Below are positions 4,895 through 56,378 of a stretch of DNA of 64,000 nt, piece by piece; position 1 is the first letter of the stretch, and every line of letters begins with the position of its first letter. The notes under the pieces were generated by a model. It was not told the origin of the DNA and did no database searches. It saw nothing but the letters and a program-made list of their open reading frames with translations. The DNA is from Hypomesus transpacificus. Its lineage: Eukaryota > Chordata > Actinopteri > Osmeriformes > Osmeridae. The stretch spans positions 7,577,604 through 7,641,603 of the forward strand of contig NC_061078.1 of NCBI RefSeq assembly GCF_021917145.1, in the 5' to 3' direction. The position numbers and the translations under genes were made by a program.

Positions 4895-5651
4895 CTAAGG
4901 GAGACGAGGTGATCTGTCTGGCGCTGAAACACTTTTACTAGATTTACTACCTGTCATCGTTAACAGGGCTGTTCTCTTTTATAGTTTCAGTTTCTCTTTC
5001 TGAGTCTGTCCCTCTCTCTCTCTCCCACTTAACCGAACATGCCTCCAGATGATGTCAACCGTCTCTTCTTTCTGATTGGTTTAGCATTTTAGCGACTACC
5101 ATTAATTAATTACCTTAGTGTGGGATCTAGCATGGATGATTGTGTGTGGGTAAGAGTGGTCTCAATCTCAATCCTGAGACTCTTACCAAGGCAGCAGGGA
5201 AGGGGGCTTTTAACACAGGGGACGGATGGAGTGTTGTTGGAGGAGAGAGAGTACCAGGGGAGGAGGGAGAGGAAGTGTTGATGTTTAATGGAGGGTGAAG
5301 GAGAAAGAGGAGGAGAGAGGGAGGAAGGAAGGGAGAGGCAGAGGATAACGGGGCTGCAGGGTAATATAGAAGTGCTATTTCACAACAAGGTCTAACCAGA
5401 CAGACAGAGAGACAGAAAGGAGTACAAATATAATATTACATCAAAAATATTATATTACATCATGTGAAACATGTAATATTACATAATTTTCAATCCGGAA
5501 AAGAAACACATATAGAAGAGACATAAACAGAGAGAGAAAGAGAGAAAGAGGTGGGCAGACAGAGAAAAGTAAAAGTTTTTTTTATTTTTATTGTCCCTTG
5601 ATGTCAGATAAAACCTAAACATGTAATACAAAGCAGTGTCTCTAAACCTGT

Positions 5652-6262
5652 GTGTGCTCTCTAACCTGGGTGTGTGTGTGCTCTCTAACCTGGGTGTGTG
5701 TGTGCTCTCTAACCTGGGTGTGTGTGTGCTCTCTAACCTGGGTGTGTGTGTGTGTGCTCTCTAACCTGGGTGTGTGTGTGTGTGTGTGCTCTCTAACCTG
5801 GGTGTGTGTGTGTGTGCTCTCTAACCTGGGTGTGTGTGTGCTCTCTAACCTGGGTGTGTGTGTGTGTGCTCTCTAACCTGGGTGTGTGTGTGTGTGTGTG
5901 CTCTCTAACCTGGGTGTGTGTGTGTGTGCTCTCTAACCTGGGTGTGTGTGTGCTCACTAATCTGGGTGTGTGTGTGTGTGCTCTCTAACCTGGGTGTGTG
6001 TGTGCTCTCTAACCTGGGTGTGTGTGTGTGTGCTCTCTAACCTGGGTGTGTGTGTGTGTGTGCTCTCTAACCTGGGTGTGTGTGTGTGTGCTCTCTAACC
6101 TGGGTGTGTGTGTGTGTGCTCCATAACCTGGGTGTGTGTGTGCTCCCTAACCTGGGTGTGTGTGTGTGTGCTCTCTAACCTGGGTGTGTGTGTGCTCTCT
6201 AACCTGGGTGTGTGTGTGTGTGCTCCATAACCTGGGTGTGTGTGTGCTCCCTAACCTCTGTG
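5652..6262 (+). repeat. 24-30 bp minisatellite, about 23 copies, ending at a 3' splice site
   Basis: About 23 tandem units have the core CTCTCTAACCTGGG followed by a (TG)n of variable length. Variants include CTCACTAATCTGGG, CTCCATAACC and CTCCCTAACC. The last unit runs straight into the polypyrimidine tract and AG of the fam189a1 exon at 6277. Each core contains CTAAC, which fits the vertebrate branch-point consensus. The short open frames across it are translations of the repeat. Confidence 0.95.
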
Positions 6263-6276
6263 TTGTCCCTCTCCAG

Positions 6277-19615
<13,339 letters not shown>

Positions 19616-21936: not shown

Positions 21937-28794
<6,858 letters not shown>

Positions 28795-53520: not shown

Positions 53521-55571
53521 ATGGCGGACGCCGACTGGGGTGAGATTCTAAGTTAGAAATGATCACATTATCTAACTAGAAAGCTACATATAAAGTTAAA
53601 ACTACTACTATTTATTAGATGGATATTGAAATGAACTCAAGTTAAATTGTTATCGTCTCCGTATATTTCATATAGATAATGACAACTTCGAACATCTTGA
53701 ACCGATCCCAAAGGCGGTTGTACTGGACAAATGGGAGGGCGAAGACGAAGAGGATGATGTAAAGGTAAGCTAAGCTATTTTACTTGCGCGCAAGATAGTC
53801 CAGTGAAGGTTTTAACAGTTGGCCATATCCAAACTCTCAACGTGTAGTCAACTGCTCCATTTTGTTTGATGCAGTGTTTTAACTAGTCAAGCCTATATTT
53901 GCGTTCTCTGAACTGTTGTCAGCTAACAGACTCTTAAAACGCGTTGCTCTAGCTAGCTAGCTACGTACTGGCCGTAACGTGAAAACCATGCATGGCAGAG
54001 GCTCATCCAGCTAGCCTAGCCAGTGTTAGTTAGCCTAGCCAAAACTCAAGGCCGCATGTGAAAATGTCAACGTGTGTTGCCTGTTGGATTCTTCATCCAA
54101 GTTTCTTCTCCCACTTTAGATACGCTTTTGCTGGTGACACTACATCGCTAGAAAGCTAGCAAGAGCTACGTTGTCACAGATTGTAAAGGGGGTTAATTGC
54201 GTACACATAAGTAGTTATTACTTTCGAGCTAGCTCGGCTAGCTAACGTTTAAATCTGTCAAGAAAATGTGAACATGATAAAGAAGATCACTATCCGATGA
54301 CTCAGTTGGGCAACAGTGCTAGAAGCTTCCAACTCTGAAACATACCAGGAGTAATGTGCTTTTTCTAGCACTCCCAGCTAAAGACATTTTCCCGTTCTCT
54401 TACTCTCCTGAATGTTAAAGAAAATTTGAGAATTTTGTGGAAAGGTTTAGTCAGGCCTGTTCTGTAGCATATGGTGTGAACGGCCAGGACAAATGATGCT
54501 TTATTCAGGCGCATACAGCAACTCTCATTGTAGTTTGTGCCTGTAGGGAGGCTTACTGTGTATATGAGCCATATTCAACTGTCAAATGTCAATTTCTGAT
54601 TCTAATCAGATTTTGGATGCCAGTGTCATGTGTAAATGTGGTCTGTGTGGTTTGTTTTGTGATGTTGCTCTCTTTCAACCTGTAGAGCCATAAAACTAAA
54701 ATAATGCTCAAATCTTTAAAGATGCATCATGAAATCATTCCCCATCTGTGCTAATGAGATGCTGAGTGTCTCAGTATCTAACTGATCTTTTGTTCAAACA
54801 TGGTGTGATGGTCTCACCTGCACACAGGGGTTCTGAAAATTCATTACATCTCAAGTTTCTGATTCTCTCTTCAGGACAATTGGGATGATGAGGAGGAGGA
54901 GAAGAAGGCGGAGGTTAAAAAAGCAGGTGCGGTAATACTCATATCAATACTACAGAAGACTCAAGTAGACAGAAGTACCGGAATGCTGTCTGCTGTCTCT
55001 CGTGATGTGACTTTACTCTCATCATGCACCTTTTCGTTTCAGAGACAAAAGTGTCAGAAAAGAAGAAATTGAGTGAAAAAATCAAAGAAAAAGAAAACAG
55101 ATTAAGGAAAAAACAGGAGGAGAAGCGTTCAATGGTGAGTTCAAGGGCCTGCCTGCTCACGGGTGTTCAACTCTACATTTACATTTAATTAATTTAGCTG
55201 CATTTTTATCCAAAATTACATACAAATAGTGCATATGGTAATTACAGCATCAGAATAGCTGATAATGTCAGCCTGCTCTACCACTTATCTTGAGCTGAGC
55301 CTTGGGAGAATTGTAATTGTTGTCACCAGGAAGCAGAGGAGCTGAGTCCTGAAGAGCAGCAAGCGGAGAAGCTGAGGGTGATGCAGCTACAGGAGGCAGC
55401 AGATCTGGAGCTCGCTAAGGAGGCTTTCGGTATGCCCTGGATGATCACCTGAAGCCTGTCCCTGTCTCACTCACTGTCCCTCTCTGTCTCTCTCTCTTTA
55501 TCTCTCTCTCTCTTTATCTATCTCTCTCTCTCACACTCTCTCTCTCACACTCTCTCTCTCTCTCTCTCTCA

Positions 55572-55605
<34 letters not shown>

Positions 55606-56378
55606 TTCTCTCTCTCACACTCACTTTCACACTCTCTCTTTCTCTCACTCTCTCTCTCTCTCACACTCACTTTCACACTCTCTCTCTCTCTCTCTCTGTC
55701 CCTCTCTCTCTCACTCACACACTCTCTGTCCCTCTCTCCCCTGCTACAGGTGTTAGCAGTAGTAACAACTTGTCAGGTCTAGATGCTATGTGCCCATCCT
55801 CCAAAGACGACTTCACAGAGTTTGAGAAGCTGCTGAAAGAGAAGATCTCTCAGTTTGAGAAGTCGGTTCATTATTCAAATTTCCTGGATTCCTTGTTTCG
55901 GGAGCTTTGTATTTCATGTGAGTTTCACCTTTTGACTTTTAAACACATTGGCATTACTTCAATCACATCCATTCCCTAAGTAAGTGTTTTATTTATCTAT
56001 TCACAGTGGAAGTTGAAGACTTGAAGAAGATCAGCGGTTCTCTGACAGCTCTACTGAATGAAAAACAGAAACAAGAAAAAGTGAGTATCTGGCGCTTTTT
56101 TGTTTGGGAATTGTAGTTCTTCCTATGACCAGGGGAGGGACAAGTTAACCTAGCTCTGGTCCAGCCAGCAACTCAAAGCATCCTGTGTGTAAAATGGACT
56201 GTCTTATGTTTGGTTAATTCATGCTCTTCTTTTTTTGTCTTAGCAAAACAAGCAAGGCAAGAAGAAGAAAAAAGGTGTGGTGCCTGCTGGAGGGATGAAG
56301 TCCAAGATGAAGGACGACCTTGCAGACTACGGCGATTTTGAAGGCGGCTACACCCAAGACTATGAGGACTTCATGTGA
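53521..56378 (+). CDS. eif3j: Eukaryotic translation initiation factor 3 subunit J
   Basis: Eight exons: 53521-53539, 53676-53764, 54875-54926, 55043-55134, 55330-55429, 55750-55917, 56007-56080 and 56244-56378. They join in frame to 242 residues (human protein about 258). The start MADADW sits in a short 19-bp first exon. The acidic N-terminus (DKWEGEDEEDD, DNWDDEEEEK) is followed by a basic coiled coil (about 55-120), the conserved DAMCPSSKDDFTEFEKLLKE region, and a lysine-rich tail ending DYEDFM. eIF3j is the loosely bound eIF3 subunit that contacts the decoding centre of the 40S ribosome and helps recruit eIF3 and recycle ribosomes in the cytoplasm. It lies tail to tail with cilp. The intron before exon 6 holds a long CT repeat. 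Confidence 0.97.
55473..55735. repeat. (CT)n/(CA) low-complexity tract before eif3j exon 6
   Basis: About 260 bp of CTCTCT with ACACTC interruptions run almost to the CTACAG acceptor at 55749. Confidence 0.92.

Follow-up and report, generated by a model that had tools for sequence, protein, structure and literature searches.

Long AG exclusion zones upstream of acceptors have been described in human genes, with lengths of 381 nt (PTB), 438 nt (nPTB) and 1,126 nt (one human gene), and zones of at least 100 nt precede 838 of 67,334 human introns' acceptors; one of the human zones is due to an AG-free repeat and has its good branch site at -17 (Gooding et al. 2006, PMC1431707). In OGDH, one branch point is said to have expanded into several within one intron (Kralovicova et al. 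2021, PMC7969005). Intron 18 of ABCA7 carries a VNTR of a 25-bp repeat with a splice signal in each unit, and the in-frame exon 19 is skipped more as the VNTR lengthens (PMC5954066). Teleost introns that carry AC repeats at one end and GT repeats at the other have been reported (Lin et al. 2016, via PMC9198270), and tandem UACUAAC repeats in the Gomafu transcript bind SF1 (PMC3116199). These descriptions, and the comparisons drawn with them below, follow the excerpts of the articles that were available. A tandem branch-point array at an intron end does not appear among the matches listed in the open-access literature, as far as their titles and abstract openings go.

The array described here lies at the 3′ end of intron 1 of fam189a1, in a 64-kb piece of contig C19 (the window, whose positions are used throughout) from a fish genome of 437 Mb. 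Exon 2 of the gene is 57 nt long, in frame and on the plus strand (6277..6333, donor GTGAGT), and exon 1 lies upstream of the window, where it ends at -6705 with the donor GTAAGT; intron 1 thus measures 12,981 nt and includes 5,000 N, which lie upstream of the window (-4999 to 0, L010). The exons were called with a small predictor that uses splice matrices and codon scores, the latter trained on 1,560 window codons. The joined fam189a1 exons match the Pfam CD20-like family over residues 31-195 with an E value of 1.1e-19, and because this match is obtained after splicing exon 1 to position 6277 and on to further exons, the acceptor at 6276/6277 is well supported. A U12-type intron was considered, since CTCCCTAAC is close to the U12 branch consensus, and was rejected; U12-type introns have the donors ATATCC or GTATCC, and the donor here is GTAAGT.

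Splitting the sequence on TAA yields 24 TAA-bearing units, separated by (TG)n, at 5637-6276. The exact 14-base core CTCTCTAACCTGGG occurs 18 times within the array, and when up to two mismatches are allowed the window holds 22 matches, every one of them inside the array, where shuffles of the window lead to an expectation of 0.95. Unit 1 (5637..5655) is diverged, reading TCTCTAAACC / TCTCTAAACCTG without GGG. The 22 internal units, 2-23 (5656..6245), follow GCTCTCTAACCTGGG(TG)n; the core varies in units 13, 19, 20 and 23. The last, unit 24 (6246..6255), is again diverged and lacks GGG (CTCCCTAACCTCTGTG / GCTCCCTAAC); it is followed by CTCTGTGTTGTCCCTCTCCAG and then by the exon at 6277. Its A at 6254, the predicted working branch point, lies 22 nt upstream of 6276, the final base of the intron, and the pyrimidine-rich tract that leads from it to the acceptor AG (6256..6276) is 84% pyrimidine. 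Since units 19-20 have variants in common with the end units 23-24, the end unit belongs to the array. The first-pass annotation had counted about 23 motifs, in agreement with this split, and had considered a last unit CCCTAACC to be in a good place for the real branch point; this is unit 24, which does occupy an ordinary branch-point position. Between the motifs run 23 TG tracts of 8 to 18 nt each (290 nt in total, with 13 of at least 12 nt), and CTCTCT occurs 18 times.

A scan for AG shows that the array lies in an AG exclusion zone of 638 nt on the plus strand (5637..6274). No other AG-free run in the window is as long; the next on the plus strand measures 426 nt, and the minus strand reaches 203 nt at most. 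CTAAC is present 20 times in the zone, as opposed to 2.0 times in dinucleotide shuffles (largest value 7). Zones of at least 100 nt, the threshold used by Gooding et al., precede 14 of 94 predicted exons (6/35 in the window and 8/59 in random stretches) and 24 of 560 acceptor-like AGs outside predicted exons (P 3e-4); the 94 are the exons that score at least 16 in the predictor, drawn from the window and 18 random 10-kb stretches on five contigs, and fam189a1 exon 2, at 15.2, is outside this set. These counts come from a rough predictor, and other exon calls underlie the human figure. Of the AG-free runs on the plus strand of the window, 18 reach 110 nt; 11 of these read as ending at exons, that at 25674 being the least sure. 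A search for selection against AG or on the branch core has no power here: 12 of the 84 possible single changes within a unit would create an AG, and there are about five variant events.

With the human distant-branch-point exons, the fam189a1 intron shares a long AG-free zone with several candidate branch sites. It differs from them in that the zone is a tandem array with a branch motif in nearly every unit; moreover, distant-branch-point exons in the sense of Gooding et al. have their good site far away and lack one in the ordinary position, and the fam189a1 intron has a CTAAC whose A is 22 nt from the last intron base. OGDH is comparable in having several branch sites that are said to stem from one within a single intron, but its four sites are, in the text available, conserved, mapped and near the 5′ splice site, while those of fam189a1 form a tandem array at the 3′ end. 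As in ABCA7, a splice signal lies in the repeat unit beside an exon, here a branch motif in nearly all units at the acceptor 6276; the ABCA7 unit, in contrast, begins with a donor. The GT repeats at the 3′ end of the teleost introns of Lin et al. find a counterpart in the 23 TG tracts, and no AC tract of at least 10 nt is found in the readable 1.7 kb after the intron 1 donor, beyond which the next 5 kb are N. The tandem branch-point motifs of Gomafu are UACUAAC in a noncoding exon, as opposed to CUCUAAC at an intron end, and the UG repeats directly upstream of the acceptor of CFTR exon 9, studied in relation to TDP-43 (PMC12171016, as excerpted), differ from the 23 tracts of fam189a1, which are separated by branch motifs.

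The array is confined to one place. All 16 genome matches to an exact two-unit linked pattern lie within it, and the bare core is found elsewhere in the 437 Mb as six solitary matches with no TG arrays in about 100 bases on either side. A dispersed or transposed repeat, which the first-pass annotation had named as an outcome that would speak against its reading, is accordingly rejected for the exact pattern. The same annotation had proposed an expansion of the intron's own branch-point segment, and this gains support from the single-locus pattern and from the recurrence of the same design at other acceptors. Judged from sequence, the array appears to have grown out of the 3′ segment of the intron itself, and one of the intron's own units would have been its origin. 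The idea that the unit is a copy of the whole branch-to-AG segment is unsupported: when the tail of a six-TG unit is compared with the end of its own intron, 7 of 21 positions agree, and 20 of 94 other intron ends reach as many agreements, so that the tail is no closer to its own end than to others. A four-TG unit matches the intron's own end at 12 of 21 positions, a figure that stands without a null. A paralogue of fam189a1 exon 2 on contig C7 (L035 600-1570) has a plain acceptor without an array, and an array of about 500 nt directly after its donor; this paralogue cannot show the ancestral state of the array.

We propose that a minisatellite grew in place from the 3′ end of fam189a1 intron 1. 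A TG tract beside the branch point would have been the unstable seed, and the copied unit would have taken in the branch motif. The last copy would stay joined to the polypyrimidine tract and the AG, leaving a branch point about 22 nt before the exon at any copy number, and the AG-free unit would introduce no false acceptor between any copy and the exon. Since the last copy keeps its position and the unit is without AG, copy number would be nearly free to drift. The last unit would then be the main branch point, and the internal units would be mostly spare, many of them folded on each other and in minor use at most. We give this reading, that is, growth in place with the last copy working and copy number near-neutral, a probability of roughly 0.6; the sequence itself shows the anatomy of the array, its single locus, the AG-free zone and the return of the layout at other acceptors, and from these we infer the origin in the intron's own unit, the dominance of the last unit and the near-neutrality.

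The proposal made at first pass, that the array offers the spliceosome many alternative branch sites, is not supported so far. It would hold that many units act as branch points, that the AG-free zone lets scanning from any lariat arrive at the same AG, and that the outcome is redundancy or a tuning of exon 2 by copy number. CTAAC does occur 20 times, and no AG separates any of these copies from the acceptor; the PTB and nPTB zones are associated with tested or predicted distant branch points (PMC1431707, available text), and OGDH uses four clustered distant branch points (PMC7969005, likewise). However, a good motif with its own pyrimidine tract is already present at the ordinary place, what comes after each internal unit is a run of UG repeats and not a pyrimidine tract, and pairing is predicted for most of these units. 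In a long fold (5601-6340), the branch A has an unpaired probability of 0.01-0.07 in units 2-23 and of 0.29 in the last unit; in a short fold (6181-6334), the values are 0.03 for the last unit and 0.27 for unit 23, so that the predicted pairing of the branch As depends on the stretch that is folded. A 211-nt piece folds far better than its shuffles (z -5.65), which we ascribe to the nearly self-complementary ACCUGGGU. In addition, the human AG-free repeat whose sole good branch site is at -17 is described by Gooding et al. (PMC1431707) as apparently unrelated to splicing. On balance, use of the internal units as alternative branch points is unlikely, although it deserves some weight.

The composition of the spacers raises a different explanation. 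UG tracts are preferred by TDP-43 or CELF, and CUCUCU by PTB. The array could therefore be mainly a binding platform, with its 23 UG tracts for the former and its 18 CUCUCU for the latter, that represses or otherwise regulates the 57-nt exon 2. The number and length of the tracts fit such a role, and because exon 2 is in frame, its skipping would keep the frame. On the other hand, TG tracts precede several acceptors in the window and in the random stretches, mostly, one presumes, without regulation, and we regard a platform as the chief function of the array as quite improbable. In the window, the acceptors at 15358, 17786, 18956, 46512 and 51263 lack a classical polypyrimidine tract: TG repeats there give way to a few pyrimidines and then the AG.

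The layout found in fam189a1 is repeated in the window in golm2, where a repeat scan finds a 33-mer present 4.2 times with 98% matches (27713..27851, plus strand) in an AG-free zone of 264 nt before the acceptor at 27861. CTGAC is found in three units and CTGAT in the last, with As at -125, -92, -59 and -26, the last branch-like A being 25 nt from the last intron base. The sequence differs from that of the fam189a1 array, and it is likewise single-locus, all three genome matches to a 17-base piece of the unit being at that array. Three further acceptors on the plus strand serve as comparison. The golm2 acceptor 24849 follows a C/T-rich array with an AG-free zone of 426 nt (24423..24849); no yTnAy is present inside this zone, and TTCAC (-440) and TTGAC (-435), the only candidates, lie just upstream of it, making a very distant branch point a candidate interpretation. 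The eif3j acceptor 55749 follows a (TC)n array with CTCAC motifs and an AG-free zone of 293 nt (55465..55749), and a further fam189a1 exon has an array-like pyrimidine tract with an AG-free zone of 190 nt (14541..14637). The golm2 peptides have no match in Pfam and the gene was named by peptide reading, as was ctdspl2, also in the window, whose peptides match the NIF phosphatase family. Across the 94 predicted exons, arrays are found at 18 acceptors and after 9 donors, a difference that is not significant (P 0.09).

The growth reading gains further ground from recurrence across the genome. The pattern CTAAC, TGTGTGTG, CTAAC gives 101 forward and 119 reverse matches genome-wide (mirror pattern 18 + 18), and its CTGAC version gives 390 and 360 (mirror 159 + 168). 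We examined all tandem loci among the matches listed, 11 with CTAAC (C2 to C10) and 8 with CTGAC (C1 to C6); ten of the CTAAC loci were read around or at the array ends and the one on C5 as one stretch, and the CTGAC loci were read on the sense 3′ side. Among these 19 loci from the matches listed, 9 abut an acceptor on their own strand (5/11 CTAAC, 4/8 CTGAC), and 4 lie at or closely after a donor of the opposite strand (2/11 and 2/8). The other 6 show no splice site (4/11 CTAAC; 2/8 CTGAC, for the sense 3′ side that was read). Six of the nine exons behind acceptor arrays are confirmed, those of HMGCR, acetyl-CoA carboxylase and VPS52 by Pfam (the VPS52 exon has no match among PDB sequences) and those of EIF2AK3, DCTN1 and CAD by PDB sequence. 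The remaining three (on C10, L061 and L062) are supported by open frame, L061 with a sub-threshold RPEL match (E 0.43).

In the nine acceptor arrays, the distance between the last branch-like A and the last intron base ranges from 20 to 35 nt, as compared with 22 nt in fam189a1 and 25 nt in golm2: it is 20 nt in VPS52, 21 in L062, 22 in acetyl-CoA carboxylase and CAD, 23 in EIF2AK3 and HMGCR, 27 in L061, 28 in DCTN1 and 35 in the C10 intron. The motif at that place is CTAAC or CTGAC in six, and CTAAT (HMGCR), CTGAT (CAD) or GTAAC (EIF2AK3) in one each; the nearest CTAAC of EIF2AK3 is at 39 nt, and the nearest CTGAC of CAD at 50 nt. The C10 intron (13129895-13131763; L047, L048, L059) is 1,869 nt long, runs from GTACTG to CTCTAG and is, in the parts read, nearly all CTAACCCTGTGTGTGTGTTT repeat, with 53 CTAA(C/T) motifs; AG occurs there twice, once at the donor and once internally, and 799 middle bases lie outside these parts. 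At the HMGCR exon (C7 9442045-9442327, L057), GCAG|GGTACAGA is repeated in tandem, with CTAAC and (GT)n as spacers, to a total of ten copies including the real acceptor, and the acetyl-CoA carboxylase exon (C5 954100-954400, L058) has seven tandem copies of the acceptor and exon start, again including the real one. Because their units hold the acceptor and the first exon bases, these two are tandem acceptors rather than AG-free arrays, and since 2 of the 9 acceptor arrays thus contain AG, freedom from AG is not a general rule.

The exons at the donor-side arrays are identified as PLU-1/KDM5 and ankyrin by Pfam and as myosin X by PDB sequence, and one is recognized by open frame only, with no match among PDB sequences; the donors were placed by reading. 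The myosin X array starts about 25 nt after its donor. The other three opposite-strand arrays apparently start at donors, placed by reading, and repeat them together with exon-end bases, in the manner of the ABCA7 VNTR; they are at C7 10169240-10169504 (L055, KDM5-like), C7 10115117-10115283 (L051, unnamed frame) and C4 8488505-8489213 (L065, ankyrin gene).

These loci bear on the simplest alternative, namely that in a repeat-rich genome an ordinary minisatellite ends at an acceptor by chance, and by chance has CTAAC in its unit. Minisatellites are common, since the random stretches (180 kb, five contigs) hold seven that measure 200 nt or more, and CTRAC on either strand is present in 14 of 116 arrays of the window and the random stretches. 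The layout recurs, however, in golm2 within the window and at 9 of the 19 loci elsewhere, among the matches listed. The genome presumably has 200,000 to 300,000 introns, and at this assumed count the chance that an array edge falls within a 40- or 50-nt reach above an acceptor of its own strand is about 0.009-0.017 per locus, the 40-nt reach taken by itself giving 0.009-0.014. The probability of 9 out of 19 is then 4e-14 to 1e-12 for 40 nt and 3e-13 to 1e-11 for 50 nt, that is, about 1e-11 or less, an estimate that is valid for TG arrays with CTAAC or CTGAC only, since the loci were chosen by motif. We therefore find coincidence hard to credit.

A control in which CAATC replaces CTAAC gives 17 + 16 matches genome-wide, and arrays with the branch motif are more numerous than CAATC arrays. 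Of the three tandem CAATC loci, one is 90 nt above an acceptor, one is at a donor of the opposite strand (both by open frame only) and one is at neither; the CAATC repeats on C178, 0.2 to 3.3 kb apart, lie outside the three loci that were read. As two of the three are near likely splice sites, the tie to junctions concerns TG arrays generally and not the branch motif as such, and a position at splice junctions is probably characteristic of TG-bearing arrays as a class in this genome. The control also points to a TG tract close to the acceptor as the likely seed, with the branch motif copied along as its neighbour.

Taken more broadly, exon-intron junctions may be birthplaces of minisatellites in this fish. 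Growth at an acceptor would copy the branch point (fam189a1, golm2, VPS52, EIF2AK3, DCTN1, CAD) or, in HMGCR and acetyl-CoA carboxylase, the acceptor as a whole together with exon bases; growth at a donor would copy the donor, as in the KDM5-like and the ankyrin gene, and an entire intron could turn into a branch-point repeat. Several copies would be in use, so that the number of branch points would be a length-variable, heritable dial of splicing. We put this forward tentatively, as a possibility with the odds against it. The recurrence at junctions suggests a filter, by which arrays survive at intron ends if the branch motif is kept and no harmful AG arises. Branch-point choice is hard to study, as introns usually have one or a few weak sites. 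Arrays of a few to more than 50 near-identical strong motifs, at graded distances to one AG and, in the AG-free cases, with no competing AG, form a natural series, which could be used to ask how a choice is made among equal sites, what weight distance and RNA pairing carry, and whether copy-number alleles alter exon inclusion. The fam189a1 array and its recurring counterparts would thus be a natural test of the number of branch points that an intron can carry.
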